This document shows, in pieces, positions 6,138-61,521 of a DNA stretch of 64,000 nt. The DNA comes from an uncultured Treponema sp. GTDB lineage: Bacteria > Spirochaetota > Spirochaetia > Treponematales > Treponemataceae. Within the stretch, counting starts at the first letter, position 1; every line of letters starts with the position of its first letter. The translations under genes were made by a program, and so were the position numbers. A model generated the notes under the pieces. The model did not search any database and was not told the origin of the DNA. It was given only the letters and a program-made list of their open reading frames with translations. The stretch is taken from the NCBI GenBank assembly GCA_947177175.1, contig CAMWTK010000001.1, positions 1 through 64,000 of the forward strand. Direction: 5' to 3'.

Positions 6138-8459
6138 TCAGCCGATCTCCGCGTTCACGGCATACTCAGTCCTGATTTCACGCCCGGCCGCAAGCAGTTT
6201 TTTCCCCGCCACCTGCACGATGCCGTCCTTCGCCTCAATCGCCACCGAAAAGAACTCGTCGCCCGTAATCTCGGCTTTTTTCGCCGCGTGCTCGTCCGCG
6301 CCCGCAAGCACGACCTTCGTTCCCGGCGCGGCCCAGCCCGCGTCAAGCACTTCCACGCGGGGCTTCCCGTCCTGCTCGTAGTCGCCCGCGAGCAGCATGC
6401 CACGGCTCTCCACGCCGCGCATCGTGCGCGGGGCAAGGTTCGCCGCGATGATGACGTGCTTGCCGAGCAGCTCCGCCTCCGTCAGGTAGGGGCGCAGCCC
6501 GGACTGAATCGTGCGCGGCGTGCCGGATCCGTCGTCCAGCGTCTCGATATACAACTTGTCGCCGTCAGGATTGGGCTTGATGTCGGTGATTTTCGCCACG
6601 CGCAGCTCGATGTTCGCGTTGAAGAACGCGACCTGCTGCTCGCCCGTGAGCGCGGGTTGCTCCGCCTTTTTCTCCTGCTTGGGCTTCGGCTTTGCCGCCT
6701 GCGCCTGTTTTCCGCCCGCCATGCCGTCCTGTTTGCCGCTGAACTTCGCGCGGAACGCGTCCGCCGTCTTGTTGTCGAGCGGCGTAAAGAACACGGCAGT
6801 CGGCGCGATCGTGTCAAGCCCTTCCATCGTGCCGAGGTCGCCCCAGCGCAGGCTGCCCGGTTTGGCATCCGTGCCGTAGCGCGCGTCGTACACCGTCTTG
6901 CCGAGGTAACCGGCGACCGTCTGCGCGTACTGCGGCAGGTACGGGTGCAGCATGATTGTCAGATCCTTGATGACGTAGGCGAGGTTGTAAAGCACATTGT
7001 CGGCGACCGCCTTGTCGGTCTTGACTGTCTTCCACGGCTCCGCCGCCTGGAACGCCTTGTTGCAGAGGTCGCTTATGGCGAACAGCTCGTGGAACGCATC
7101 CTTCAGCTCCGCCCATTCGAGGTGCTCGGTCGCCTTTTTCTCGTGCGCGAGCACCTGCTCCCACAGCGCGTCGTCCTTTTTTCCCGCCGGAATCTTTCCG
7201 CCGTAGTTTTTGTTGATGAACAGGAGCGTACGGTTCACCAGGTTGCCGAGGTTGCCGATCAGCTCCTTGTTGTATTTTTCCTGAAAATCCTTCCAGGTGA
7301 ACTGGTAGTCCTGGCTTTCGGGGCGGTTATAATAGATGTAAAAACGCCATGCATCCGCCGGAATGCCGCTGTCCTTCGCGTCCGAGCCGAACACGCCCAC
7401 GCCTTTCGACTTGGAGAACTTGCCGTCCTCGTAGTTCAGGAATTCCGTGGAGCTCATGTGGAACAGCTTGGTATAGTCGCGCCCCGTGCCGATCTCGCTG
7501 CACGGGAAGACGACTGTATGGAACGGGATATTGTCCTTGCCGATAAACTGGAACAGGTCGATTTTTTCCGCTGATGCCTCCGCGCTCTCCGACGGCAGCC
7601 ACCATTTTTTCCAGTCGAACGACGGCCTGCCCGCCGCCCGCATCTCGTCGGCGAGCTGCTTGGTGATTGACATATAGCCGATGGGCGCGTTGAACCACAC
7701 GTAGAACACCTTGCCCTCGTAGCCTTGCTTGGGAACGGGGATGCCCCAGGTGAGGTCGCGCGTGATTGCCCGCTCGTTCAGCCCGTCGCGAATCCACGCC
7801 TTGGTCATCTGGACGGCGTTCGCGCTCCACCTGCCCTCCACGCTCGCCCGCTCCATCCACGCCTCAAGCCGGGGCGCAATGGCGGGCAGGTTGATGTACA
7901 GGTGCGTCGTCTCGCGCGCCTCCGGGGTCGCGCCGCAGGTATGGCAGCGCGGGCGGAGCAACTGAGTCGGGTCGAGCAGCGTGCCGCATGAATCGCACTG
8001 GTCGCCGCGCGCGTCGGCGGCATGGCACTTGGGGCACTCGCCGTCCACATAGCGGTCGGCAAGGAACATCCGGCACTGCGGGCAGTACAGCTGCGTGGTC
8101 GTGTGCTCCGTGATAAAGCCGTTCCGATCAAGGTCGGCGAACACCGACTGCGTAATCTCGGTGCATTCGTCGTTGGAGGTGCGCCCGAATTTGTCGAACG
8201 CAATGCCGAACCAGTCGTAGATTTCCCGGTGGATGGCGTAATAATAGTCGCACAGCGCGCGCGGCGATTTCTTCTCTTCCATCGCCTTTGTCTCGGTCGC
8301 CGTGCCGTACTCGTCCGTGCCGCAGACATACAGCGTCTCGTAGCCGCGGCTGCGACAGAACCGCGCGAACACGTCCGCGCTGAGCATCTGGATAAGGTTT
8401 CCCAGATGCGGGATATTGTTGACATACGGCAATGCCGATGTGATAAGCCTCTTGTTCAT
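6138..8459 (-). CDS. metG: Methionyl-tRNA synthetase with C-terminal tRNA-binding domain
   Basis: A 773-aa class I synthetase. It has the HIGH-type motif (NIPHLGNL) near residue 15, two zinc knuckles with CPQC, CPKC, CDSC and CHTC pairs around residues 145-190, the WFNAPIGY segment, and the KMSKS equivalent KFSKSKG. After the anticodon-binding domain comes a Lys/Pro/Gln-rich linker and a Trbp111-like tRNA-binding domain (ELRVAKITDIKPNPDGDKLY) that ends the protein. The start at MNKRLITSALPYVNN is canonical; the longer ORF is not needed. There is no ribosome site: a promoter at 8466-8494 predicts transcription starting exactly at this ATG. Confidence 0.96.
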   Translation of the reverse strand: MNKRLITSALPYVNNIPHLGNLIQMLSADVFARFCRSRGYETLYVCGTDEYGTATETKAMEEKKSPRALCDYYYAIHREIYDWFGIAFDKFGRTSNDECTEITQSVFADLDRNGFITEHTTTQLYCPQCRMFLADRYVDGECPKCHAADARGDQCDSCGTLLDPTQLLRPRCHTCGATPEARETTHLYINLPAIAPRLEAWMERASVEGRWSANAVQMTKAWIRDGLNERAITRDLTWGIPVPKQGYEGKVFYVWFNAPIGYMSITKQLADEMRAAGRPSFDWKKWWLPSESAEASAEKIDLFQFIGKDNIPFHTVVFPCSEIGTGRDYTKLFHMSSTEFLNYEDGKFSKSKGVGVFGSDAKDSGIPADAWRFYIYYNRPESQDYQFTWKDFQEKYNKELIGNLGNLVNRTLLFINKNYGGKIPAGKKDDALWEQVLAHEKKATEHLEWAELKDAFHELFAISDLCNKAFQAAEPWKTVKTDKAVADNVLYNLAYVIKDLTIMLHPYLPQYAQTVAGYLGKTVYDARYGTDAKPGSLRWGDLGTMEGLDTIAPTAVFFTPLDNKTADAFRAKFSGKQDGMAGGKQAQAAKPKPKQEKKAEQPALTGEQQVAFFNANIELRVAKITDIKPNPDGDKLYIETLDDGSGTPRTIQSGLRPYLTEAELLGKHVIIAANLAPRTMRGVESRGMLLAGDYEQDGKPRVEVLDAGWAAPGTKVVLAGADEHAAKKAEITGDEFFSVAIEAKDGIVQVAGKKLLAAGREIRTEYAVNAEIG

Positions 8460-8465
8460 AGGGAA

Positions 8466-8494
8466 AGTATACCGATTTTCCCGCGCTTGTGCAA
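8466..8494 (-). promoter_or_regulatory. metG promoter, predicted leaderless start
   Basis: Minus-strand TTGCAC, a 17-bp spacer, TATACT. With the usual six bases between -10 and +1 the transcript begins at 8459, the A of the metG ATG. No Shine-Dalgarno sequence is present (TTTCCCT precedes the ATG). Confidence 0.75.
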
Positions 8495-9008: not shown

Positions 9009-9716
9009 TCACAATTTGATTGTTTTTATTAAATTTGACCAATCCCTATACGTCATGCATGGATACTTATCTTGATAGAAATTTTGAACAAGTTGAATTG
9101 CCTCCAAGGTATGAAGATTTCCGCCGACTAATAAGGGAGTTAACTTTCTCAATAATTCAACGTCGGTAATTTTATATAATTTATCATTAGTAGTAAGCAT
9201 TTTTGCACTGTTTTTGTTTTCAGAAAGAATTATAGGTATGCCGAAAAATATATCAATCTGCTCAAAAAACTTAACGACAGATTTTCTTTTGAATAAAACT
9301 ACCTTATCGCCATTTCTGAGATTCTTTTGCAAAAAAACATTTTCTAGCACATGGTTCTGCCAACTCTGACGCGAATAAAACGAGACGTTATCCTGCACAT
9401 TTAGCCTTTGTTTCGTAGTATAGTAATTCCAACAGACATACACATCGTTTTCTGCATCATATCCCAAAAACACAAAGGGAATGTCAGATTGCTTTATAAA
9501 ATCAAATTCTTCTCGCAGTGGCAGTTGTGCTCTGTTAATATCGGGTCTGTCTTTAAAATATGCCGATGAAATATTTTTTATATATATGAAATACTCTTTC
9601 TCTGCAAAAGAAATCTTGAAGGGCTGACATCCTGTTATGAAAGAAAAATCTTTTGAAGCGTTCATTTCATGCATAAACAGCGAAAGCAATTTATTTCCGC
9701 TAATCTTTCTGTTCAT
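9009..9716 (-). CDS. Unknown fifth component of the Z1/MORC defence operon
   Basis: A 235-aa, AT-rich gene whose start directly abuts the stop of the PD-(D/E)XK gene. I do not recognise a named domain. The N-terminal half is beta-rich, with FIYIKNISSAYFKDRPDINR, FVFLGYDAENDVYVCWNYYT and NVSFYSRQSWQ, and looks like a compact DNA- or ligand-binding fold; the C-terminal half has a helical ending (YPCMTYRDWSNLIKTIKL). Position as the last gene of a tight restriction-type operon suggests a specificity, sensor or inhibitor role, which is inference. No catalytic motif of known nucleases is evident. Confidence 0.75.
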   Translation of the reverse strand: MNRKISGNKLLSLFMHEMNASKDFSFITGCQPFKISFAEKEYFIYIKNISSAYFKDRPDINRAQLPLREEFDFIKQSDIPFVFLGYDAENDVYVCWNYYTTKQRLNVQDNVSFYSRQSWQNHVLENVFLQKNLRNGDKVVLFKRKSVVKFFEQIDIFFGIPIILSENKNSAKMLTTNDKLYKITDVELLRKLTPLLVGGNLHTLEAIQLVQNFYQDKYPCMTYRDWSNLIKTIKL

Positions 9717-10697
9717 TTACAGACTCCTGAACAAATTGCTCTTGCTCGATTCTAATGCTTCCCTCGGAATAGAAGATACGTTTGCCAAGCAGCATGAGAA
9801 TTTCACATCCGAAACTTCGGGCGGAACATCCGTATCTTTTATTTTGGGAATCGCTCTTGAATCAAAAAAGCGAAGCGTGTCTGCCGCCGCCTGATAATCA
9901 TAACAAAAATCAAATGCGTTTTCCAAATCGCTTCCCAAAGCCTTGAAAACTATGGAATCAAAGACAGTTTGAATCTGTATATCAGATATTCGAGAGAAAA
10001 TCATTGAACGCAAATCACTGATATTTTTGCCAATTCCAGTCTGAGTCGTAAATATGGAGGCAACAATAAGTCCTGAATGTTCATTCTGATTTAGCTGTTC
10101 CAAAGAAAAGGTATGGATTCTTTCCTTTTTGCCAGTGCTTTTTACTTCAATCTTGTCAGTTCCATCATTGAAATCAAACTTGCTCTCAGGACTGCAATGC
10201 CATGCCTTTATCATATATTCAGGATTCTGTGATTGCGAGATTAGGAACATTTCCGCCCATAATCCTTGAACCGTTTTTTCCGTGGGTTTTGACGCATGAC
10301 TGAACAATGCGATAATTTTATCTATTTCTTTACTTATTTGCTTTAGGGAGGGATTTTTAGGAATGTTTTGCAACAACAAATATATGACTTCAAGAAAATA
10401 GTTCTGAAAATCATAACTTTCCGAATTAAGCATTATGATGGAACACACCTTCAAGGATTCTTCGTTATCATCTCCAATCAACTTGCAATTCTTGTTAAAC
10501 AAGATAGAAATAAATTTCAGTTTCAAGTCTGCGACAACATTCTCAAATTTACAGTCAATCAGAAACATAGGCGTTCTATTTTCCGAAATACCCAAAAGAA
10601 ATTTTTTAGAGAGGCACAATTCTGTAACCGGCGTAAAGTTGTTTTTCAAAGAATGTCTATTTTGTAACTCGGAATACAGTTCGCAGATTTTATCCAT
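9717..10697 (-). CDS. PD-(D/E)XK-type nuclease protein of Z1 systems
   Basis: A 326-aa protein with a restriction-endonuclease-like core in its middle. The helix GLWAEMFLIS provides the leading Glu, and KFDFNDGTDKIEVKST carries the D...(E)xK catalytic pair, at roughly residues 145-190. This matches the PD-(D/E)XK motif proteins repeatedly found next to Z1-domain and MORC-type ATPase genes. It most likely supplies the DNA-cutting activity of the operon. The N- and C-terminal parts are unassigned. Seven bases separate it from the Z1 gene; the next gene follows with no gap. Confidence 0.8.
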   Translation of the reverse strand: MDKICELYSELQNRHSLKNNFTPVTELCLSKKFLLGISENRTPMFLIDCKFENVVADLKLKFISILFNKNCKLIGDDNEESLKVCSIIMLNSESYDFQNYFLEVIYLLLQNIPKNPSLKQISKEIDKIIALFSHASKPTEKTVQGLWAEMFLISQSQNPEYMIKAWHCSPESKFDFNDGTDKIEVKSTGKKERIHTFSLEQLNQNEHSGLIVASIFTTQTGIGKNISDLRSMIFSRISDIQIQTVFDSIVFKALGSDLENAFDFCYDYQAAADTLRFFDSRAIPKIKDTDVPPEVSDVKFSCCLANVSSIPREALESSKSNLFRSL

Positions 10698-10704
10698 AAG
10701 TAAA

Positions 10705-12903
10705 CTATCCTACATAATTAACCGCAAAATCGTCAGGATAATAAATTGCCAGCGTATAAGCCGTTTTTCCTTTCCATTTTTTGGATTCACAACTCAACTC
10801 TATATTATGTATCTGAATGCAAATTGAGTCTTCAAAACAAATTTTCATATCACCGGGATAGACATTTTTTCCGCTCGGCGAATGTCCGGAAAACAAATAT
10901 GTGCTTAACCTTTCCGTGTTTGTGTCAAATGCTCGTTTTCTCGGTTCGCTTTTGTAAGCCATTTGAATTATATACGCAAATTTCAACGGATTCCCGTTTT
11001 CCAATGAAGAAAGATATTTTAAATATCGCACTGTAGCCTGTTTGCGTGCGGCATCGGGCATGTTCTGACATCTAAAATCAGAAAGAAACTGAATTACTTC
11101 GTCAATATCCAATTTCAAGTAACGATGGTCTCTGTCGTCTGTGCCGAATTTTTTATATAATTTGAAATCGTCTTCATGTTTAGAAAAAAGAGTATCAACT
11201 GTGTTTTTATTCCCTTCAATACTGTTTGTCTGAAAAGCATTCATCTTTCTCCAACCGTTCAGTTTGTTGATGACGACTTCCTTTGTAAGAATATTCCTGC
11301 GCGTCGCATTTAGTGATGGACTTGTCAAAAGCAAGTGCTCCACATTCTCAAGACTGTCATTTCCTTTAAGCCATTTGCGCATTTCTTCTTCATGGTCAAC
11401 ATATTCCGTATACTCCTGCCGCACATCGCGCGGCAAAAACACCCTGCATGACAAAAGGTATTTTTGCTTGTAGCCAAAGAATCGACACCGCTGCTGAATA
11501 GTGTCGGCATTTGATTTTCCGATTGTGTATCGTGGCATATATGTGGTAGCAAGATTCTCAACTGTAAAACCTCGGTTCAGCATATCTGCACCAACAAGAA
11601 TATGAGAAGAATAATCATTCCATGGAATTTCTTTGTTTTCCCCATTTTTCTTGTTTCTGCTTATGATCAGCTCAATATTTGTGTCTTTTATTATATCTGG
11701 AATAAAAGACGCGATGTCAGAAAAAACTGGATATTCTATATTTTTCGCTTTGTATTCTTGTATTGCCATTGGATATGTGTTTTCAAAATCTGAGAGTAAC
11801 TCTCTGAAAGCAATGTCATTCTTATCCAAATTAAAAGTAGTTATCCAGCCGTTTATTATATTTGACACCCAATTATGAAATTTCTCGCTTGCATCCTGTT
11901 CTTTGTCTGCATGAACCATCATTGAAAGAAATTTCTCATCCTCTTTGTATTGCACGACAACAGCAACTGAAAGAATATGAAGTTGCAGCGCGGTTATAAG
12001 GGTTTTTGGTGGCTGTGAAAGATTATTGCGCTTTGAATGATATGTTTCTTCTTTTGGGATTTCAATTATAAGACCAGGATTTTCCTTAAAAAATGTTTTT
12101 CCGCCTGTGTATGATTTTCCGGGCGTTAAGACAGTATGGTGTTTCGGAGAGAGCAAATCCATTATACTGATAAGGAGAGGTCCTTGCGGAGTCGCTGTAT
12201 ACTGGATATAAGAATGGTTTGGCAAAGAACTTCTTAATTCTGTGATTCGTCTATAAGTTGTTGTATATTCATCATCTTCCCACTCTTCGGACTTGCTGTT
12301 TTTGTACGCATATCCGTTAAGGCTTGCCTGGTCTGCCTCATCATCAATTATCATTACGCCGTCATTTTTTAATACATTTTTCATTCTTGAAGTACCGAAC
12401 ATATCTGAGATGTCTTTGATATGTTGATGCTGTTTTAAAACCGTTATTAAAACTGTAGGATTGGTGCTCATCTGTAACTCATTTGCAATTCTGTCCAAAT
12501 CCTCTAACTTTGGATTCTGGTGAAGTTTATACCACTTACGATTATTTCCTTCGTTTATCAGGTCTTTTCTTAGGCGCTTTGTTGTTTGTTCGAGGAGATT
12601 ATTTTTGTTTCCCGCAAAATAAATGATGATTCTGTAACCGCTGTCGCTCGCAAGTGCTGAAAGAGCGGTAAAAGACATTGTTTTTCCGCTCTGAACATAA
12701 CCAACAACAAGACTGGTAACAGATTGCGGTTTACCTGATTTTGGATCTGCACAATTTGATAGAATAGAAATGGTTTCGTTTTTGGAAGTCTCCAATTCTT
12801 CCGCAGAAAGTTTAGTGAAACGGCTGTATAATTCAGTTGCTCTTTCACCAAAAACAGGCGTGAAAGAATCTGGCTTGTTTTCTTTTTGAATCCGCACTTC
12901 CAT
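10705..12903 (-). CDS. Z1-domain SF2 helicase-like ATPase
   Basis: A 732-aa superfamily II-type NTPase. Walker A is GYVQSGKT near residue 68, the DEAD-like Walker B is IIDDEAD near residue 190, and motif III-like SYIQYTATPQ follows. The C-terminal RecA-like domain carries the Z1 signature GADMLNRGFTVENLATTYMPR and the arginine-finger region DTIQQRCRFFGYK. In the analysis of prokaryotic MORC ATPases by Iyer, Abhiman and Aravind, Z1 proteins are the motor partners of MORC ATPases, methylases and PD-(D/E)XK nucleases in restriction-like operons. Two bases separate it from the GHKL gene. Confidence 0.88.
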   Translation of the reverse strand: MEVRIQKENKPDSFTPVFGERATELYSRFTKLSAEELETSKNETISILSNCADPKSGKPQSVTSLVVGYVQSGKTMSFTALSALASDSGYRIIIYFAGNKNNLLEQTTKRLRKDLINEGNNRKWYKLHQNPKLEDLDRIANELQMSTNPTVLITVLKQHQHIKDISDMFGTSRMKNVLKNDGVMIIDDEADQASLNGYAYKNSKSEEWEDDEYTTTYRRITELRSSLPNHSYIQYTATPQGPLLISIMDLLSPKHHTVLTPGKSYTGGKTFFKENPGLIIEIPKEETYHSKRNNLSQPPKTLITALQLHILSVAVVVQYKEDEKFLSMMVHADKEQDASEKFHNWVSNIINGWITTFNLDKNDIAFRELLSDFENTYPMAIQEYKAKNIEYPVFSDIASFIPDIIKDTNIELIISRNKKNGENKEIPWNDYSSHILVGADMLNRGFTVENLATTYMPRYTIGKSNADTIQQRCRFFGYKQKYLLSCRVFLPRDVRQEYTEYVDHEEEMRKWLKGNDSLENVEHLLLTSPSLNATRRNILTKEVVINKLNGWRKMNAFQTNSIEGNKNTVDTLFSKHEDDFKLYKKFGTDDRDHRYLKLDIDEVIQFLSDFRCQNMPDAARKQATVRYLKYLSSLENGNPLKFAYIIQMAYKSEPRKRAFDTNTERLSTYLFSGHSPSGKNVYPGDMKICFEDSICIQIHNIELSCESKKWKGKTAYTLAIYYPDDFAVNYVG

Positions 12904-12905
12904 GG

Positions 12906-14420
12906 TCAGTCATTCTCCAAAATATACTGATTGAACAAATTCCTGACATTTCCCACATTAGTAGTTCCGCTATCAGGCGCTTTTATCTCTGCTTTTGCAA
13001 AAGCCATAAGAATTCTTATGACAGGCTCATAGTCTTTGTCTTTCTTAAACTGCGGATAACAATCAAAAAAAGAATGATTTAAGTTAATCTTACATACAAA
13101 CACATCTTCTTCTTTCCGCACAGAATACAAGGCCATGCTTTCTGTATCGGTAATCAGCTCATATTTTAATTCACATTCTTTGCTTCCAATTAAAATAGGT
13201 TCTGTATATGTTTCCGCAGGTTTTGAATTATTGATTAACTCCTCGTTCTTTTTTATTGCGGCAACATTATTGATTTTCAATTCTTCCTGCTCAATTTTTT
13301 CCTTTTTGAACAAGGCGGAGGTATTTTTCTTCTCAAAGGTTTCTTTTATCTCCTGCGCTATCTCTTCTTTTTTCACACGGCTTCGCTGTCGATACCCGTC
13401 TGCCTGCAAAAAGATATTTGGTTCATTTTTTCTTATTTCATCGCGGATATCTTCAAGAAGTGCCTGCAAATCATCTTCAGCTTTGAAACTGTTTTTATTG
13501 AATGTAACCTCAAATCCATCCAATTCAAGTTCGCCAAACAAGCGTTTATATTTAAATGTACCGACAGATCCAAAAATGCAGGTTGGAAAATAATGCTCGT
13601 CACCACCCCCTACAATAACACGTCCACGTCGGAGCAAGACAAGTCCGTTCGCGCCCTGTTGAATCTCATCTAAAATGGCGATAAAACCGTTTGCCTTGTA
13701 TTTCCCCGCATTAAAATGAATTTCTTTTTTCCATAAGATACTTCCGCCGTCAGGGTTTTTATAAAATGGCGCGTTTAATATTTTATAATTCGGAGCAGTA
13801 AGTTTTTCTTCATTCACAAAAATTTCAATTTCATCATTTCGGAGATAATAACGATAGATACTCGACAAATGTTTTTTCACCCTTTCCAAAGAATTTGGCT
13901 TAGGTGCATTTTTTGAGAGATTTGTAAGTATAATTTTTGTATAATGCTCCTTTTGAGATTTTGTCTTTTCAGTTATAGCCAGCACCTCTTTTTCTTCTTC
14001 AACGACTTTGTTCAAATCAAACGAAAGAATTCTTTCCTTGCTTTCACCTAGGGCTTTTGTCGTTATTGTCCAATTATCGGCAAGCCAAACGGAGGCCGTC
14101 TTCATACCCATTCCGTACTCATTAAGTCCCGCCCTGTTCTCGGGAATATTCGCCGGCTCAAATGCGCGCAAATAATTTTTCTCGTTTATGCCAGCCGCAT
14201 TATCAACTATGGTCAGAGTTTTCTGTTCCCAGTCCATTGTTATTCGGATGCAAAGTTTGTAATCAGGCTCATAAGATTGTAAGAGATTTTTATTATCAAA
14301 ATAATTCTGAACTGCATTATCAACATATTCGCCAAGCGTATTCGAAAGCGTATTGGACAAATCCCTGAATGTGGTGTATACATTCGGTTTCAACGCGATT
14401 GAAACTTGTTTTATTTCCAT
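12906..14420 (-). CDS. MORC-type GHKL ATPase of a restriction system
   Basis: A 504-aa protein with an N-terminal GHKL (Hsp90/MutL-type) ATP-binding domain. The N-box is LGEYVDNAVQ near residue 30, the G1 box is IVDNAAGI near 72 and the G2 box is NEYGMGMKTAS near 100. An S5-like second domain follows, then a charged coiled-coil region (about 340-400) and a small C-terminal domain. This is the layout of bacterial MORC proteins, thought to clamp or remodel DNA in an ATP-dependent way. Start and stop overlap the methyltransferase stop by one base (TAATG), so the genes are translationally coupled. Confidence 0.88.
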   Translation of the reverse strand: MEIKQVSIALKPNVYTTFRDLSNTLSNTLGEYVDNAVQNYFDNKNLLQSYEPDYKLCIRITMDWEQKTLTIVDNAAGINEKNYLRAFEPANIPENRAGLNEYGMGMKTASVWLADNWTITTKALGESKERILSFDLNKVVEEEKEVLAITEKTKSQKEHYTKIILTNLSKNAPKPNSLERVKKHLSSIYRYYLRNDEIEIFVNEEKLTAPNYKILNAPFYKNPDGGSILWKKEIHFNAGKYKANGFIAILDEIQQGANGLVLLRRGRVIVGGGDEHYFPTCIFGSVGTFKYKRLFGELELDGFEVTFNKNSFKAEDDLQALLEDIRDEIRKNEPNIFLQADGYRQRSRVKKEEIAQEIKETFEKKNTSALFKKEKIEQEELKINNVAAIKKNEELINNSKPAETYTEPILIGSKECELKYELITDTESMALYSVRKEEDVFVCKINLNHSFFDCYPQFKKDKDYEPVIRILMAFAKAEIKAPDSGTTNVGNVRNLFNQYILEND

Positions 14421-15766
14421 TACTCTATCTCCAGCAGTCTTTCCGCGATTCGTCTTACGACTTCGACATTAATCGCGTTTCCAAAAGCCCGAAACGCTTC
14501 CGCCACAGTATCAGGATAGTACTCCAAATCACCCATGCATTGTAACTTAGCAGCCTCTTTGCTTGTCATGTATCGTCCTTTTTCACCATTAGGAGTTTCT
14601 ACCCACGGGAATATTGGAATTTGGGTTGTTGTTAATACAAGAGCGGGAGAGTATGTCGGCAATTTTACGCGAATCCCAGAAGGCCTGAATTGTACTATTT
14701 TGTCATACAATGTATGTTTTACCCCCTTGTCATGACCGCAATTCCATTCAAATTTTTGGTGGCTGTTTTTGAAGCCATGTTGCTTCAACTTCTCCAGCCA
14801 TGGATCTAATATCTGCTTATGTGCCTGATAAAATTCCCTGTTCCACTTTATGAAATTTTTTTTCCAGTCAGGAAAATTATGATTTTTTTCAGTTTTATTA
14901 GTTTGCGCATATATTGGAAGGCAACCAAGCAAATCATCCTTCGAATTTCCTTGAACATGACAACCAAATTTTCCTTTTTTCCCTTCAAGTGATTTTGTAT
15001 GCTGATAGAATGGCGCGACAGTCTCATACTTATAATCCGCCCCCCATTCCATAGCCCATACAGGAAAAGTTGGAATGGGAATGTCGTGCGCTGTCAATAA
15101 ATCAAGAAATTCTTGCCATACTTGCATATGTATTCTCGTTTGAGGTTTCAATGTCATATAAACGGTATCATTTTTGTCTATAATATCTTCAATACTACAT
15201 TTTGTACTTTTTTTATACGGGGGAAAAGAAAAGCCCCTCAGCCCACCTTTATCTATCAGCCGCCCTACAATATAAATTCTTGTACGGTGCTGTGGAATTC
15301 CAAAATAATGAGGAGATATAATTTCATCACGTATATCATACAGTTCTGAAAGTTGTGCTGAAATAACTTTATAGGTATTTCCCCCATCGTGTGATTTTAA
15401 ATTGGGAACATTTTCAATGAAAACATACTCAGGCTTACATTTTTTCAATATTTCCATAATTTTATAAAACAGGTTTCCTCTTTCTTTATCATCATCGAAT
15501 CCCTGCTGTTTCCCTGCCTTTGAAAACGGCTGGCAGGGAAACCCCGCACATAAAACCTGCGGCTGATATGGCAATATATCTTTTTCTATGTCTACTTTAT
15601 TTATATCGCCGGCACATTTCATTTTAAAATTTTTCTCATAGAATTGTTGCAGTTCCGGTTTTATTTCGCTTGCAAACACACATCTGCCGCCAAGCTTTTT
15701 CATTGCAAGATGAAAACCGCCTATTCCAGCAAATAAGTCTATAAATGTAAAAGATTTATCTCCCAT
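14420..15766 (-). CDS. DNA (cytosine-5) methyltransferase
   Basis: A 448-aa C5 methyltransferase. It shows motif I DLFAGIGGFHLAMKK, catalytic motif IV GFPCQPFSKAG (Cys near residue 79), motif VI ENVPNL, motif VIII QHRTRIY, a target-recognition region between about residues 190 and 370, and motifs IX/X ending in GNAINVEVVRRIAERL. It would mark host DNA and protect it from the nuclease encoded downstream. It is the promoter-proximal gene of the five-gene operon, so the protective activity would be made first. Base composition is far more AT-rich than in flanking genes, a sign of horizontal transfer. The recognition sequence cannot be read. Confidence 0.93.
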   Translation of the reverse strand: MGDKSFTFIDLFAGIGGFHLAMKKLGGRCVFASEIKPELQQFYEKNFKMKCAGDINKVDIEKDILPYQPQVLCAGFPCQPFSKAGKQQGFDDDKERGNLFYKIMEILKKCKPEYVFIENVPNLKSHDGGNTYKVISAQLSELYDIRDEIISPHYFGIPQHRTRIYIVGRLIDKGGLRGFSFPPYKKSTKCSIEDIIDKNDTVYMTLKPQTRIHMQVWQEFLDLLTAHDIPIPTFPVWAMEWGADYKYETVAPFYQHTKSLEGKKGKFGCHVQGNSKDDLLGCLPIYAQTNKTEKNHNFPDWKKNFIKWNREFYQAHKQILDPWLEKLKQHGFKNSHQKFEWNCGHDKGVKHTLYDKIVQFRPSGIRVKLPTYSPALVLTTTQIPIFPWVETPNGEKGRYMTSKEAAKLQCMGDLEYYPDTVAEAFRAFGNAINVEVVRRIAERLLEIE

Positions 15767-16920: not shown

Positions 16921-16949
16921 ATGACTTTTTCTGCGATATGCGGTATAGT
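16921..16949 (+). promoter_or_regulatory. xre promoter, predicted near-leaderless start
   Basis: ATGACT, 17-bp spacer, TATAGT. The predicted +1 at 16956 lies one base before the ATG at 16957. No convincing ribosome site is present. Confidence 0.55.
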
Positions 16950-16956
16950 AAGAGCC

Positions 16957-17277
16957 ATGAACGATATGAGACCGACCATAAAAGAAATTGCCCGGAACGT
17001 TGCGGACAGGCGGAAAGCACTCGGCCTAACGCAGGCACAGATTGCTGAGCGGCTGCAAAAAAGCCGCGCCTATGTCATCGCGCTAGAGGCCGGGGACGTG
17101 CAGCCGACCGTCTCAGTCATCTACGAGCTTGCGGAGATTTTCGCTTGCACCGCGCACGACCTGATGCCCCCGAAGCCGCTTGACGAAGAGCGACCTGAAA
17201 TGCGCGGCAGCCGCGTCAGCGCTGAGACGGAAGATGCGGTTGCCCGGATGCTCAAGGAGGAACGCGATGCATGGTGA
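16957..17277 (+). CDS. Xre-family helix-turn-helix regulator
   Basis: A 106-aa protein starting MNDMRPTIKEIARNV. A Cro/C1-type HTH occupies about residues 10-65: RRKALGLTQAQIAERLQKSRAYVIALEAGDVQPTVSVIYELAEIF. The last 40 residues are charged. The first ATG in the ORF track (16921) lies in the -35 region of the predicted promoter and is not used here. The 3' end overlaps the ImmA-like gene by 11 bases, with that gene's AAGGAGG inside this coding region. Such Xre-ImmA pairs control mobile elements and stress responses; the Xre member is the repressor. Confidence 0.85.
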   Translation: MNDMRPTIKEIARNVADRRKALGLTQAQIAERLQKSRAYVIALEAGDVQPTVSVIYELAEIFACTAHDLMPPKPLDEERPEMRGSRVSAETEDAVARMLKEERDAW

Positions 17278-30404: not shown

Positions 30405-30884
30405 TCACAAGACCGAGAATGCCACGCCGACAAAAAAGCCGAGCAGCACGCCCACGCACACCTCAAGCGGCGTATGCCCCTGCACTTCCTTTATCGGGCG
30501 GTACGCATGAATCTGCTGCTCCTGCAACGCCGCCCCGATTTCGTTCAGCTTCCGCGCCTGAATGCCGCTCGCCCGCCGGACTCCCAGCGCGTCACGGACT
30601 GTTACGAAGAAGAAACAGGCAGAAAGCATGAAAACGTCGGAGGCAATGCCCGAACGGAAGCCGATGGACGTGCACAGCGACGAGACCAGCGCCGAATGCG
30701 CCGAAGGCATGCTCCCCGTGCGCCAGATGAGCAGCTCGAACAGCTCGCCGATACTGCGTATCTTTCCGCTGAACAACTTGATGACCGTCTTGATGACCTG
30801 CGCGCTCAGCCAGCTGAACACACACGCCAAAAATACCGGGGAAGAAAAAAACTGCTGCACCTGATCACGAAGACTTGCATCCAT
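30405..30884 (-). CDS. Divergent PAP2 family (DUF212) membrane protein
   Basis: A 159-aa membrane protein with the DUF212/divergent PAP2 signature: WLSAQVIKTVIKL, RTGSMPSAHSALVSSL, RDALGVRRASGIQARKLN and the C-terminal VQGHTPLEVCVGVLLG. The family is related to PAP2 phosphatases and is thought to act on lipid phosphates, but no member is well characterised. ATG at 30884 is chosen because a TATAAT at 30892-30897 predicts transcription from 30885. It is divergent from rluA and precedes the rnf-like operon by 18 bases. Confidence 0.85.
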   Translation of the reverse strand: MDASLRDQVQQFFSSPVFLACVFSWLSAQVIKTVIKLFSGKIRSIGELFELLIWRTGSMPSAHSALVSSLCTSIGFRSGIASDVFMLSACFFFVTVRDALGVRRASGIQARKLNEIGAALQEQQIHAYRPIKEVQGHTPLEVCVGVLLGFFVGVAFSVL

Positions 30885-30891
30885 ACGCTTC

Positions 30892-30919
30892 ATTATATCC
30901 GTATGGCGGTTTTCGTCTA
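30892..30919 (-). promoter_or_regulatory. Promoter of the PAP2-like gene, near-leaderless
   Basis: Minus-strand TAGACG, 16-bp spacer, TATAAT; predicted +1 at 30885, one base before the ATG at 30884. It overlaps the upstream region of the divergent rluA promoter. Confidence 0.6.
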
Positions 30920-30920
30920 G

Positions 30921-30949
30921 TAGCAAAAGACGGATTTTCCCGGTAGGAT
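30921..30949 (+). promoter_or_regulatory. rluA promoter, predicted leaderless
   Basis: TAGCAA (weak), 17-bp spacer, TAGGAT; predicted +1 at 30956, the A of the rluA ATG. The -35 is poor, so this is less certain than its neighbours. Confidence 0.4.
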
Positions 30950-30955
30950 ACTGCC

Positions 30956-31918
30956 ATGAACTTCACGCACGTAACCGCAGGGCAGGACGACGACGGCCGC
31001 CGCCTTGACACCATTATCCGGCGATACCTGCCGGGACAGCCGCTGTCGCGCGTGTACGGCGCGCTCCGCAAGGGACTGATTTGCGTGGACGGCAGGCGGC
31101 GGCGGCAGGATTTCCGCGTGCGCGCCGGAAGCGACATCGCAATCGCCCGCGTCCTGCTGGGCGAAGCAAAAAACGCCCCAAAAACACCCGCCACCCCGCT
31201 CCCGGACGACCTCGTGCTGTTCAGGAACGGCGACCTCCTGATCCTGAACAAGCCCTATGACCTCCCCGTGCAGAAAGCACGGCGCGACGGACAATCGCTC
31301 GCGGACATGGTGCGGGACGACTTCGCGTTCCGCCACGGCAACGACGGCAGCTCGCTTTCGTTCCGCTGCGGACCGCTGCACCGGCTTGACCGCAAGACCA
31401 CGGGAATCGTCGTGTTCTCGCAGAGCCTGCGCGGCGCGCAGTGGTTCTCGCAGGCGATCCGGGCGCACGCCGTCCAGAAAAAATACCTCGCGCTCGTGCA
31501 GAACGCGCTGAATCACGCACAGACGTGGGAAGACACTGTTGCAGAAAAAGATACACCATCACATCGTTTCCACACCGTCTCGGTCGGCGGGGACGGAAAG
31601 CACGCGCAGACGACGGTCGAGCCGCTTGCTGCCGGCATGTTCCGCGGCATGCCCGTGACGCTCGTGGAGTGCGCCATCACGACGGGACGCAAGCACCAGA
31701 TCCGCGCGCAGGCAGCGGCGCACGGATTCCCCCTGCTCGGGGACACGGCCTACGGCGGCAGCGAAATTGCCGGGACGCAGGATTTTTTCCTGCACGCGCA
31801 CCAGATCGTCATCGGCAAGAACCCGCTCGGCGTTCCGCCCGACATCCGCGCCGCTATCCCGGACAATTTCGCAAAAATGCTGCGCACCTGCTTGATAAAG
31901 TCTGACGCACGGTTATAA
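30956..31918 (+). CDS. RluA-family pseudouridine synthase
   Basis: A 320-aa RNA pseudouridine synthase. The N-terminal 60 residues form an S4-type RNA-binding domain (RRLDTIIRRYLPGQPLSRVYGALRKGLICVDG). The catalytic HRLDRKTTGIVVF motif is near residue 140 and the C-terminal GRKHQIRAQAAAHGFPLLGD is typical of RluC/RluD-like enzymes that modify 23S rRNA. The exact uridine is unknown. The ATG at 30956 has no ribosome site. Confidence 0.92.
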   Translation: MNFTHVTAGQDDDGRRLDTIIRRYLPGQPLSRVYGALRKGLICVDGRRRRQDFRVRAGSDIAIARVLLGEAKNAPKTPATPLPDDLVLFRNGDLLILNKPYDLPVQKARRDGQSLADMVRDDFAFRHGNDGSSLSFRCGPLHRLDRKTTGIVVFSQSLRGAQWFSQAIRAHAVQKKYLALVQNALNHAQTWEDTVAEKDTPSHRFHTVSVGGDGKHAQTTVEPLAAGMFRGMPVTLVECAITTGRKHQIRAQAAAHGFPLLGDTAYGGSEIAGTQDFFLHAHQIVIGKNPLGVPPDIRAAIPDNFAKMLRTCLIKSDARL

Positions 31919-32869: not shown

Positions 32870-33961
32870 CTATTTCTTGTCCGCAAACATCCGCTTGGGA
32901 ATCTTGACCGACACGCCGAGCGCGCGCAGCGACTCGCGGATAGCGTATTCCAGCTCGGTGCGCTGCGGGTTGATCGGCAGCACGAACTGGCGCACCTGCG
33001 TCCAGGTCTTCAGGTACAGCTCGCCTGCCGCCGCCTTCGACTCGGCCTCTTTCTGCCAGTCGGTCAGCCCGGCGATGAAATCGCGCACGAAGAACATGAG
33101 TTTCTTTCCCAGCCGAGCGTCGCTTTCCCGCGCGACCAGCTCGTCCAGCGCACGGAGACTTTCCATATAGGCGCGCTCGAAATGCTTGTCGGCATACATC
33201 ATGGCGCACGCCGCCGGCTGCAAGTGCATGTACAGGTCGGTGTCAAGGGCCTCGCGAACGATGTCGTAGGAATGCCCGCCGTTGACGATCTTGAGCATCT
33301 CCTCGGTCAGGCGGGACGGCGAGACGGGCGACAGCAGGGGCGCACACCGGCGGATTTTATGGCGCAGGGCGAACGGAATGCGGCATCCCGTCGTGACGCT
33401 GTACTTGACGGCGCGCAGCATGCGCACGGGATCTTCCTCAAAAATACGGTCCAGCGGAATGACGGGGCGCAGAATGCCTTTCCTGATGTCGCTCACGCCG
33501 CCCACGTAATCGATGACCTGCTCGCGGAGCGGGTCGTAATACAGCGCGTTGAGCGTAAAGTCGCGCCGCTGTACGTCCTCGTCCATCGTGCCGAATTCGT
33601 TCCCGACGCTGCCCGACTTTGTTGAGCGGAACGTGCTGACCTCAAAAATCTTCTCACCGAAGAACACGTGCACCAGCCGGAATCGCCGCCCGATGATCCG
33701 TGAGTTACGGAACAGCCGCTTGATGCGCGACGGCGTGGCCTCGGTCACGATGTCAAAATCCTTGGGATTCCTGCCGACAAGCAGGTCGCGCACCGCGCCG
33801 CCCACGATGTAGGCATCGTACCCGCACTCACGCAGGTGCGAGACGACGAAATACGCGTCTTTGTCAATGGTCTCTACCGGTATCCGATGCTCTTCTTTCG
33901 TATAAACGACGGCTTTCTGCCGCAGCCTGCCGCGGGCATCGGTCGAATAACGTGTCAGCAC
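32870..33961 (-). CDS. pcnB: Poly(A) polymerase I / PcnB-type nucleotidyltransferase
   Basis: A 363-aa class II nucleotidyltransferase. It has the GGAVRD motif near residue 54 and the catalytic DFDIVTEATP pair, then RRFRLVHVFFGEKIFEVSTFR, which marks the PcnB branch rather than CCA-adding enzymes, followed by QRRDFTLNAL and EDPVRMLRAVKYS. It adds 3' A tails to RNA and so promotes decay. The GTG start at 33961 is supported by a promoter that predicts a +1 two bases upstream. The Lys-rich C-terminal tail is short compared with E. coli PcnB. Confidence 0.88.
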   Translation of the reverse strand: MLTRYSTDARGRLRQKAVVYTKEEHRIPVETIDKDAYFVVSHLRECGYDAYIVGGAVRDLLVGRNPKDFDIVTEATPSRIKRLFRNSRIIGRRFRLVHVFFGEKIFEVSTFRSTKSGSVGNEFGTMDEDVQRRDFTLNALYYDPLREQVIDYVGGVSDIRKGILRPVIPLDRIFEEDPVRMLRAVKYSVTTGCRIPFALRHKIRRCAPLLSPVSPSRLTEEMLKIVNGGHSYDIVREALDTDLYMHLQPAACAMMYADKHFERAYMESLRALDELVARESDARLGKKLMFFVRDFIAGLTDWQKEAESKAAAGELYLKTWTQVRQFVLPINPQRTELEYAIRESLRALGVSVKIPKRMFADKK

Positions 33962-33969
33962 AATGCCTT

Positions 33970-33998
33970 ATCATAATTTTTTCCCGCGCATTAGTCAA
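33970..33998 (-). promoter_or_regulatory. pcnB promoter, near-leaderless GTG start
   Basis: Minus-strand TTGACT, 17-bp spacer, TATGAT; predicted +1 at 33963, two bases before the GTG. It is back-to-back with the rfbA promoter. Confidence 0.65.
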
Positions 33999-34014
33999 TC
34001 CGCGCGGGGCTCTC

Positions 34015-34044
34015 TTGCCGTGACGGCGGGATTTATGGTAGAAT
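34015..34044 (+). promoter_or_regulatory. rfbA operon promoter, near-leaderless
   Basis: TTGCCG, 18-bp spacer, TAGAAT; predicted +1 at 34051, one base before the canonical rfbA ATG at 34052. The alternative ATG at 34043 lies in the -10 itself and is therefore rejected. Confidence 0.6.
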
Positions 34045-34051
34045 GGGCGGC

Positions 34052-34927
34052 ATGAAAGGTATCATTCTTGCGGGCGGTTCGGGCACGCGACTGTATCCGC
34101 TCACACGCGCCGTGAGCAAGCAGATTCTGCCGGTATACGACAAGCCGATGATTTACTATCCGCTGAGCGTCCTCATGCTCGCCGGAATCCGCGACGTGCT
34201 CGTCATCTCCACGCCGCGCGACCTCCCCGTCTTCGAGTCGCTGTTCGGCGACGGCGGCTGGCTCGGCATGCGGTTCGAGTACGCCGTGCAGGAGCAGCCG
34301 CGCGGGCTTGCCGACGCATTTATCGTGGGAAAAGACTTTATCGGGGACGATACCATCGCGCTCGTGCTCGGCGACAATATCTTCTACGGGCAGAATTTCT
34401 CCGAGACGCTCAAGAACGCCGCGCATACCGTGGACACGCGCGGCGGAGCGGTCATTTTCGGCTATTATGTCAAAGACCCGTCGGCATACGGCGTGGTGGA
34501 GAGCGACGCGGACGGCAGGGTCATCGGCATTGAAGAGAAGCCCGCGCACCCGAAGTCGAACTATGCCGTTCCCGGGCTGTATTTTTATGACAACGCCGTG
34601 ACACAGATCGCGCGGGAAGTCAAGCCGTCAGCGCGCGGCGAAATCGAGATTACGGCAGTGAACAACGCGTACCTCGCCAAATCCGCGCTCACCGTGGAGC
34701 TGCTCGGACGCGGCATGGCATGGCTCGACACGGGAACGTACGACGGCTTGCAGGAAGCAGGCGATTTCGTCAAAACTATCCAGAAGCGGCAGGGATTTTA
34801 CGTGAGCTGCATCGAGGAAATCGCCTACCGCAACGGCTGGATCGATAATAATCAGCTGACGGCACTGGCGGCGCAGTACAAGACCGACTACGGCACCTAC
34901 CTTCAGTTCATCGCGGAGCATTTCTGA
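34052..34927 (+). CDS. rfbA: Glucose-1-phosphate thymidylyltransferase
   Basis: A 291-aa nucleotidyltransferase that makes dTDP-glucose from glucose-1-phosphate and dTTP, first step of dTDP-L-rhamnose synthesis. It starts [18 protein letters not shown], with the signature GGSGTRL, followed by [47 protein letters not shown] and [14 protein letters not shown]. Length and motifs are normal. It begins a four-gene operon with one- to four-base overlaps. Confidence 0.97.
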
Positions 34928-37604: not shown

Positions 37605-38375
37605 ATGCGAATCCTGCCGATTGCCGCGTTCCTCCTGCTTGCCGCCAGCGCGCCGGCGGAACTGTTCAACGACCAGCTGTCAAATGACGAGCGCGAGCGG
37701 CTGTACCGGGGCGAAATCGTCATCCGCCACATCAACACGAGCGAAAAAATCTGCGTCGTGCCGGGCGCGTCGCCGGAGACCGATACGGTCGCCGATGCCA
37801 TGCGCGGCGCACGGGTGAACTATCTTTCCGAAGTGCTGTGGGCACTGCCCCTTGCCTACGACGGGCAGCTGACCGACCTTGCCGAATCGTTCTTCCGCGA
37901 CATGGACACGTTCCGTGAGATTCCGTATTATTCGGAATCCTCCGGCAAAACCGAGCCGCTTTTTACGGTCGCCGATCTGATTGAGACGGAGACGGACGGC
38001 ACGGAGACGCGCAGCACCGCCCGCTTCTGCATGGAACCGTTCGAGCCGTACCCCGCCCGCCTGTCCATGCGCAAGACACCGGACGCTTTCGTATTCCTGC
38101 ACACGAACACCGAAAAAATCAGGCTGGCAATCGTCCGCGCCATCGCGAAAGACACGATGAAAGCCGGCGTGGCAATCGTGCAGGACGGCGGCTACTGGAT
38201 TGTCTACGGCGCGGGCGGCATCCGCGGACCGAAGCCGCCGTTCCTCAAAAAATCGCTGGAAAAAGCCTTCAACAACCGGATTAAGGATTTTGCGACATTC
38301 TACATCAGGAAAGTGCAGGACGCGGAGGCTAATGCTCTTCCTGCGGCTCTGCGGCAAGATGACCCCGGAACTTGA
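37605..38375 (+). CDS. Exported protein of unknown function (256 aa)
   Basis: The start at 37605 gives a signal peptide MRILPIAAFLLLAASAPAE with a likely cleavage after APA. The mature part is soluble and includes ERERLYRGEIVIRHINTSEK, VLWALPLAYDGQLTDLAES, ARLSMRKTPDAFVFLHTNTEKIRLAIV and AIVQDGGYWIVYGAGGI. I do not recognise the family; it looks like other secreted spirochaete proteins of about 250-300 residues. It follows the rhamnose operon by 37 bp and its last 47 bases overlap the convergent wecA-like gene. Confidence 0.7.
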   Translation: MRILPIAAFLLLAASAPAELFNDQLSNDERERLYRGEIVIRHINTSEKICVVPGASPETDTVADAMRGARVNYLSEVLWALPLAYDGQLTDLAESFFRDMDTFREIPYYSESSGKTEPLFTVADLIETETDGTETRSTARFCMEPFEPYPARLSMRKTPDAFVFLHTNTEKIRLAIVRAIAKDTMKAGVAIVQDGGYWIVYGAGGIRGPKPPFLKKSLEKAFNNRIKDFATFYIRKVQDAEANALPAALRQDDPGT

Positions 38376-39399
38376 TGTTCACCGCGCGGTTGACATAGTG
38401 GATGGTGATAAAAAACAGCCAGACAAATCCGAGGACGACAAGCACGAGGCTTATGGAAGCCTTGCGCGTCCGCATGAAGACTGCGCCGATTGCGGAAAGG
38501 CAAATCAGTAGCTGCAAACACAGCAGGAACGCGACCGTCGCCCCCTCCGAAAGCCCGATATTGATCAGCTTGTGGTGGATATGCGCCCGGTCGGCGCTGA
38601 AAATGGCGCGGTGGTCACGAGTCCGCCGGATTACCGCCGCAATCACGTCGGTCACGGGAATGGACATGAGCAGGAGCATGAGGACGGACTTCACCTCCTC
38701 GAACCGCGCGTCGGCGAACGTGCCGGACGGCGCGAACAGCGGCGCGACGGCGATAAAATAGCCGAGCGTCTGACTGCCGCCGTCGCCCAGAAAAATCTTC
38801 GCCTTCGGCTTGTTGTACACGAGGAAGCCCGCGAGCGCGGCGCACAGCACGAAATAGACGTTGCCCGCGTCGCTCCCGTAGTACGCGAGCAGCAGCCCCA
38901 CCGTCAGCAGCGTCAGGAACGAAAGCCCGCCGCACAGCCAGTCCAGCCCGTCAATCAGATTGTATGCGTTCATCAGCACGATTATCCAGAAGAACGTGCC
39001 GACCCGCCCCAGCACCGGCGGAATGGCGAGCGAGAGAACATGCCGGAAATACAGCGGGCTGAGCGCGACGATGAGGGCGACCGCTATCTGCATGACGAAC
39101 TTGAGCCGGGCGCGCAGGTCAAAGAAATCGTCGATGATGCCGGTCAGAAAGATGACAAGCCCGCCCACAAAAAGCGGCACGGCGAACGCATACCCGCCGC
39201 CGGAAAAAAAGCGGACATACACCGCGGCGGCAATGAAGAACGCGAAGAACACGCAGAAGCCGCCCAAACGGGGAACGGCACTGTCGTGCATCTTGCGCGC
39301 GCCCGGCTCGTCGTACCAGTTGTTCTTTTTGCAGAGGAAGATGACGACCGGCGTAAACGCCACGCTGATGAAAAACGCAATTCCCGCAGAAACGATCAT
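38329..39399 (-). CDS. WecA/MraY-like polyprenyl-phosphate GlcNAc-1-P transferase
   Basis: A 356-aa polytopic membrane enzyme of the glycosyl-1-phosphate transferase family. It has the Asp-rich LTGIIDDFFDLRARLKF, NAYNLIDGLDWLCGG, KAKIFLGDGGSQTLGY and the His-rich DRAHIHHKLINIGLS loop. These features fit WecA/TagO-type enzymes, which start a lipid-linked glycan on undecaprenyl phosphate. The ATG at 39399 is chosen because the promoter at 39407-39435 predicts +1 at 39400; an in-frame ATG at 39414 and a GTG at 39444 lie upstream. A C9 run lies at 39444-39452. Confidence 0.88.
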   Translation of the reverse strand: MIVSAGIAFFISVAFTPVVIFLCKKNNWYDEPGARKMHDSAVPRLGGFCVFFAFFIAAAVYVRFFSGGGYAFAVPLFVGGLVIFLTGIIDDFFDLRARLKFVMQIAVALIVALSPLYFRHVLSLAIPPVLGRVGTFFWIIVLMNAYNLIDGLDWLCGGLSFLTLLTVGLLLAYYGSDAGNVYFVLCAALAGFLVYNKPKAKIFLGDGGSQTLGYFIAVAPLFAPSGTFADARFEEVKSVLMLLLMSIPVTDVIAAVIRRTRDHRAIFSADRAHIHHKLINIGLSEGATVAFLLCLQLLICLSAIGAVFMRTRKASISLVLVVLGFVWLFFITIHYVNRAVNIKFRGHLAAEPQEEH

Positions 39400-39406
39400 G
39401 GTGAAG

Positions 39407-39435
39407 ATTATCATATATGCGCACAAAAAAGTCAA
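39407..39435 (-). promoter_or_regulatory. Promoter of the wecA-like gene, near-leaderless
   Basis: Minus-strand TTGACT, 17-bp spacer, GATAAT; predicted +1 at 39400, one base before the ATG at 39399. Confidence 0.65.
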
Positions 39436-60691: not shown

Positions 60692-61486
60692 CTATTCTCT
60701 TACCAATACCGTCCGTATCGCCTGCGCCATCAGCGACGCACTCTGCTCGCTCGCAGGAACGCCATCGGGGAACACCGACGACCGCGCTTTCTGCGGCACG
60801 TCCGCCTCGGCAAATTCGCTGTCTTCCACGACATTTTCCCCCGCCGTGTCTGCGGTATCGCCGCCGCCAAACGTGCTGATGTCGGGAAGCTCGCCCAAAT
60901 CCGCGCCCGCAGCCGGTGCGGCAGTATATGACGGCGCGGACGGCTGCGGCATGACTTTTGCCGGCTTCTGCTCCGGTGCGGCGGAAGCGACCTGCGCAAG
61001 CCCCATCGGCGTAAACCCGGCAGACGATCCTGCCGGCGGCGGCACGGACGCACGATTCCCGTCCGGCACCGAAGCCGGCTCAGATACCGGCGGCGCCGGC
61101 TGAGCGGCATCAGCGGATTCCTGTGCCGCCGTTTCCGTCTGCCGCAGGGCAGGACGGGTCAAAGCCACGTTGAAGCGCGGTCCCTGCTCCTCTTCGGGCA
61201 GGCGGTCGTCATCAACCGTAATATCAATCACGCCGCCGACCCGGGACATTTTCTCCGCAGGAGCGTCCAAATCCGCATCCGCCTGTCCGTCGGAAAGGAA
61301 TTTCTGATTCAGGAACAGTATTCCGACGGTCATCACGCCGAAAAACAGCGCGCAGATGAGCGCGCGCAGCACGACATGACCGAAGCCGATGCCCGAGAAT
61401 ACTCCGACAAGAAATGACACGATGAACCCAAGTCCGGCGGAAATGCTTATGTACTTTGGGCTTATCATTTCTCCCATTCCTCCCAT
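60692..61486 (-). CDS. Two-helix membrane protein with long disordered tail
   Basis: A 264-aa protein with two N-terminal membrane helices (GLGFIVSFLVGVFSGIGFGH and ALICALFFGVMTVGILFL), then about 190 residues rich in Pro, Ala, Ser and Asp. The C-terminus (PQKARSSVFPDGVPASEQSASLMAQAIRTVL) looks folded and may bind a partner. Similar proteins sit between flhG and sigma-28 in treponemes. The ATG at 61486 coincides with the predicted +1; ATG at 61468 has a GGGAG just upstream and is an alternative. Confidence 0.72.
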   Translation of the reverse strand: MGGMGEMISPKYISISAGLGFIVSFLVGVFSGIGFGHVVLRALICALFFGVMTVGILFLNQKFLSDGQADADLDAPAEKMSRVGGVIDITVDDDRLPEEEQGPRFNVALTRPALRQTETAAQESADAAQPAPPVSEPASVPDGNRASVPPPAGSSAGFTPMGLAQVASAAPEQKPAKVMPQPSAPSYTAAPAAGADLGELPDISTFGGGDTADTAGENVVEDSEFAEADVPQKARSSVFPDGVPASEQSASLMAQAIRTVLVRE

Positions 61487-61492
61487 CTATAC

Positions 61493-61521
61493 AGATTACG
61501 GCAAAAATCCCGTTAGGTCAA
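61493..61521 (-). promoter_or_regulatory. Promoter before the 60692-61486 gene
   Basis: Minus-strand TTGACC, 17-bp spacer, TAATCT; predicted +1 at 61486, the A of the first ATG. If real, the sigma-28 gene can be transcribed apart from flhF/flhG. Confidence 0.5.

Follow-up and report, generated by a model that had tools for sequence, protein, structure and literature searches.

Leaderless gene starts are already known in spirochaetes, both mapped and predicted. In Leptospira interrogans, dRNA-seq gave 430-450 genes with a primary start at most 10 bases from the start codon; at 30 C, 184 lie exactly on it (PMC5243855). Zheng et al. 2011 predicted TA-led genes from a TANNNT signal that precedes the start codon by about 12 bases; 6 of 18 spirochaete genomes had such genes, at 1.8-6.9% of the total (PMC3160421). 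The same promoter geometry, and its coexistence with genes led by a Shine-Dalgarno (SD) site, is found in Deinococcus and Mycobacterium; the predicted share in Deinococcus-Thermus is far higher, at 36-46%, and the -10 boxes of the high-GC Deinococcus and Mycobacterium genomes are less complete than those we describe here (PMC3160421). The translation of leaderless mRNAs by 70S ribosomes at the 5′ AUG has been reviewed (PMC9031893). Our literature search turned up no study of leaderless transcription for Treponema.

Here we analyze a gut Treponema (source genome G000, a metagenome assembly of 2.38 Mb with 111 contigs), starting from one stretch of 64,000 nucleotides with 57% G+C, which we call the window. 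We propose, with a probability of about 0.93, that a sizeable minority of the genes in this organism are leaderless, with a sigma-70 type promoter that abuts the start codon. From a housekeeping-type promoter, with a -35 box near TTGAAA or TTGCAA, 17 bases, and a -10 box near TATACT or TATAAT, RNA polymerase would start either at the A of the ATG itself or 1-3 bases upstream of it. The mRNA would then open with its start codon and be read with no SD contact, most likely by direct binding of a 70S ribosome to the 5′ AUG, and SD sites would serve other genes of the same genome.

The signature is the one of the TA-led genes, and the share, about 7% as a lower bound, falls at the upper end of the spirochaete range (PMC3160421). 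L. interrogans belongs to the same phylum, but to another class; there the 5′ ends were mapped and only sigma-54 motifs were reported as identified, whereas here the 5′ ends are predicted from a clear -35/-10 motif (PMC5243855).

Promoters of the window

The initial annotation of the window named six promoters with confidence, and their sequences and spacings are exactly as it gave them. The metG promoter, TTGCAC-17-TATACT-6-ATG, lies on the minus strand at 8466-8494 (-35 box at 8489-8494, -10 box at 8466-8471), and its predicted +1 is on the ATG at 8459 of a gene for methionine-tRNA ligase (6138-8459, 773 aa, TIGR00398). We call the number of bases from the end of the -10 box to the start codon, 6 in this case, the gap. 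On the plus strand, ATGACT-17-TATAGT-7-ATG (16921-16949) precedes the ATG at 16957 of xre, a helix-turn-helix (Xre-type) regulator of 106 aa (16957-17277, Pfam HTH_3), and TTGCCG-18-TAGAAT-7-ATG (34015-34044) precedes the ATG at 34052 of an rfbA-like nucleotidyltransferase gene (34052-34927, 291 aa, Pfam NTP_transferase). The other three are on the minus strand: TTGACT-17-GATAAT-7-ATG (39407-39435) for the wecA-like gene with its ATG at 39399 (38329-39399, 356 aa, Pfam Glycos_transf_4); TAGACG-16-TATAAT-7-ATG (30892-30919) for the PAP2-like gene, a divergent PAP2 family (DUF212) member with its ATG at 30884 (30405-30884, 159 aa, Pfam DUF212); and TTGACT-17-TATGAT-8-GTG (33970-33998) for pcnB, a PolyA_pol-head nucleotidyltransferase that starts with the GTG at 33961 (32870-33961, 363 aa, Pfam PolyA_pol).

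Two more genes had been put forward less surely, and they come out differently. The gene with its ATG at 61486 on the minus strand, which has no Pfam match, has a good candidate promoter, TTGACC-17-TAATCT-6-ATG (61493-61521). The candidate for the rluA-like gene (plus strand, ATG at 30956, Pfam PseudoU_synth_2), TAGCAA-17-TAGGAT-6-ATG (30921-30949), is a weak one, with a poor -35 box and a TAGGAT that overlaps AGGA, a possible ribosome site. In the 21 transcript heads of the window we count 7 promoter pairs with a gap of 5-8, against about 0.95 expected by chance.

Promoters of the leaderless type stand back to back in two divergent pairs, PAP2-like/rluA (30884-30956) and pcnB/rfbA (33961-34052), with intergenic regions of about 71 and 90 bases. 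The genome has two PolyA_pol-type nucleotidyltransferases, a CCA-adding type of 467 aa (L063:12232-13635) and the pcnB type of 363 aa in the window, and the genes for both have leaderless or near-leaderless promoters.

A gap of exactly 6 bases is found in the window for metG only and, less surely, for the rluA-like gene and the 61486 gene. Thus, for most of the noted window genes, +1 may fall just upstream of the start codon and leave a very short leader of 1-5 bases, a possibility to be taken seriously even if we do not favor it. The gaps of 7-8 in xre, rfbA, pcnB, and the wecA-like and PAP2-like genes speak for such leaders, and so does pcnB, where the pyrimidine-purine (YR) rule puts +1 on the A of an ATT and predicts a 3-base leader that its relatives repeat (Y-AYT-GTG at gap 8-9). 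On the other hand, the genome-wide peak has its maximum at gap 6 and a Y|A step on the start codon, and the polymerase is able to start at the eighth base, which in gap-7 genes is the A of the ATG. It had been claimed that +1 falls at the start codon too regularly for chance. The claim stands for the genome-wide peak and for metG, for which the promoter geometry gives good support to a +1 right on the start codon; exact coincidence does not stand for most of the window genes, and those with gaps of 7 or 8 are predicted to be only near-leaderless (0-3 bases).

Start codons across the genome

We analyzed a sample of 864 kb (the window and two further sets of stretches) with 758 gene starts. Genes were called with a home-made finder based on codon-pair statistics, in which starts are chosen from the coding signal and the start codon only, with settings tuned on the number of SD sites; the settings that gave more SD sites also gave more leaderless-class genes. 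A version in which upstream signals were allowed to pick the starts was rejected because the decoy counts rose too (103 vs. 58-76), and the signal-free starts were kept. Transcript heads were defined by distance and strand. Within the window, a run of genes at 9009-15766 escaped the gene model when it was trained on the remainder of the genome, and most of them were recovered with training on the window only; this region is possibly acquired DNA with a different codon usage.

Scoring the start codons for -10 boxes against a shuffled control, as the initial annotation had suggested, gives a sharp peak. A TATAAT-like hexamer starts at -12 (bases -12 to -7) in 61 of the 758 genes, when the mean elsewhere is 11.7 (s.d. 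3.8, maximum 18) and 200 dinucleotide shuffles produce at most 23. The peak is one base wide, with its maximum at gap 6. For transcript heads we observe 53 vs. 8.8 at -12, a small excess at gap 7 (17 vs. 8.8 at -13), and a smaller one still at gap 8; inside operons the counts are 8 vs. 2.9, an excess of about 5. Transcript heads make up 78 of the 89 leaderless candidates. The peak is replicated in data that do not include the window, both in the half of the sample fetched second (22 vs. 4.0) and in the first half minus the window (29 vs. 4.5), and control ATGs from the genome sample, either in-frame internal or off-frame upstream, are flat and have no -10 peak. The excess amounts to 52 of 449 heads and 54 of 758 genes, which are lower bounds, as wrong starts dilute it. 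About 1 gene in 14, and at least 1 in 9 of the genes that start a transcript, has a promoter predicting an mRNA start on the start codon. As far as sequence can tell, the leaderless-type placement of promoters in this Treponema is real and far beyond chance.

The hexamers at -12 come with the rest of a promoter. With a -35 box defined by at least 4 of 6 matches to TTGACA, 31 of the 61 have one at a spacing of 17 bases and 44 at 16-18, and each other spacing has 0-3. The -10 hexamers average TATACT/TATAAT, position -14 is a G in 63% of the leaderless class, and TG is found at -15/-14 in 21 of 52. Of the 52 leaderless-class heads, 51 begin with ATG, and in 49 the base just before the start codon is a pyrimidine, compared to 222 of 363 other heads (61%, p = 3e-7). 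If +1 is the A of the ATG, this pyrimidine is what one expects of the initiator. RNA polymerase prefers a YR step as initiator, and there is one at the seventh base past the -10 box in 49 of 52 cases, compared to 30 of 79 promoter-like pairs further upstream (leadered candidates).

Two start modes coexist in this genome, as had been annotated. Next to the gap-6 class there is a class led by SD sites, with an SD core in 128 of 371 other heads and a peak at -12 to -10. None of the 78 leaderless heads has an SD core. The lack of ribosome sites, which the initial annotation noted for most of its window genes, is not independent evidence, because a -10 box at -12 to -7 occupies the position of the ribosome site and the result is partly forced. 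Secondary structure at the start shows no difference between the leaderless and the other classes.

Could the promoters be real and the start codons misplaced, so that the mRNAs have leaders and translation uses a downstream SD-led ATG? We consider this very improbable. Start calling is imperfect, and two early versions of our caller put metG 9 codons inward; but homology leaves no room for a later MetG start, as the conserved KRLITSALPY follows directly, and PurL, ProS, AsnS, DnaA, and others align to their family models from the first residues. Moreover, the YR initiator falls on the start codon and not on a random base.

The same script run on 150 kb of E. coli K-12 finds one site at -12, zero -35/-10 pairs, and no peak, and on 150 kb of the D. 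radiodurans megaplasmid MP1 it finds TANNNT at -12 in 5 of 75 heads vs. 0.3. In small samples of 200 kb per genome, -35/-10 pairs with a gap of 6-8 are weakly in excess in T. ruminis, T. parvum, and G025, which is from a sister genus; a family member of 1.14 Mb (G048) has little excess, and a G+C-rich genome of the class (G013) has a few pairs; samples of the same size from an AT-rich genome of the same class (G063, main contig 0.92 Mb) and from two genomes of the same phylum (G065 and G011) have no excess. Reciprocal BLAST on the conservation of the leaderless state across the sampled genomes gave too few pairs to use. That AT-rich stretches before the starts produce TATAAT-like words by chance is almost certainly not the explanation, for although AT-rich upstream regions are usual and there is a nonzero background of 11.7 per position, the peak has a width of one base, exceeds every shuffle, is missing from the control ATGs and from the AT-rich spirochaete genomes (G063, G065, and G011), and is coupled to a -35 box at 17 bases.

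Evolution of the metG, pcnB, and rfbA starts

The MetG protein shares 92% identity with its counterpart in Treponema sp. Mgla_MAG_ref_134 and 83% with the one in T. ruminis. In 95 relatives, 60 metG genes combine a -35 box with a -10 box whose gap to the start codon is 6-9, and 21 are SD-led. T. ruminis RU1 and T. berlinense, both cultured, are among the relatives with a leaderless-type metG. The leaderless form is also found in members of the order and of the class, and farther out in the phylum metG is SD-led. Homology fixes the start, in agreement with the initial annotation, since most orthologues have in-frame stop codons 6-45 bases upstream.

Sixteen of the orthologues have an N-terminal extension, such that the protein starts 4-7 codons earlier, and in these the promoter is found 7-9 bases before the new start; mostly, they have no ATG at the old position. 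The -10 box keeps its distance to the start codon (s.d. 0.95 bases) and not to the conserved start of the protein (s.d. 7.8), a comparison that is partly selected, since a gap of 5-9 was a condition for entering the leaderless class. By this comparison of orthologues, the metG promoter has evidently moved along with the new start codon.

In a distant group of treponemes (L031, L033-L036, L038, L039, L042), metG is leadered, with a conserved ATGGTGTT-like block just upstream. In most of these loci an ATG within the block opens a frame of 3-6 codons, whose stop overlaps the metG ATG (for example, ATG GTG TTA TAA TG). This may represent a leader minigene, or else a GGUG ribosome site.

The pcnB promoter is kept in 27 of 30 relatives, mostly at gap 8-9 and with the motif Y-AYT-GTG. 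The gene likely has a leader of 3 bases and a weak start codon, both under constraint. In E. coli, pcnB has an AUU start. We rejected an AUU start for the pcnB described here: ATT is found before the GTG in 19 of the 30 relatives, but 6 have ACT, and 29 keep the GTG. For rfbA, 11 of 30 relatives are leaderless and 14-18 are SD-led, all within one genus. The predicted leaderless state is thus conserved for some genes, and has turned over in others.

Genes predicted to start without a leader

The 46 strictest cases include purL, metG, proS, asnS, thiI, the CCA-adding enzyme, dnaA, and hprK, and also rsgA, an rlmL-like methyltransferase, smpB, yhbY, a pseudouridine synthase, histidinol dehydrogenase, and cheR. 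By our own labelling, which was post hoc, 12 of 43 scanned strict cases belong to translation or RNA modification, compared to 3 of 40 random other heads (p = 0.02). This hints weakly that enzymes of translation and RNA modification are over-represented, which differs from the under-representation of translation genes among leaderless bacterial genes in Zheng et al. (PMC3160421).

One may speculate that in these treponemes enzymes of the translation apparatus are regulated as a class through conserved leaderless starts, such that their synthesis would be independent of SD initiation and could respond to changes in the state of the ribosomes available. The class would consist of metG, proS, asnS, thiI, the CCA-adding enzyme, rsgA, rlmL, yhbY, smpB, and pcnB (with its conserved 3-base leader and GUG). 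We find this proposal doubtful at present.

Gene finders that expect a ribosome site misplace leaderless starts. Most of what is known of host-associated Treponema comes from assemblies that carry no annotation. The metG gene, with a promoter that follows start shifts of 4-7 codons, offers evolutionary evidence for leaderless starts that does not require transcript data. And with rfbA, which has switched between start modes within a single genus, it would be possible to trace directly how leaderless starts are gained and lost.
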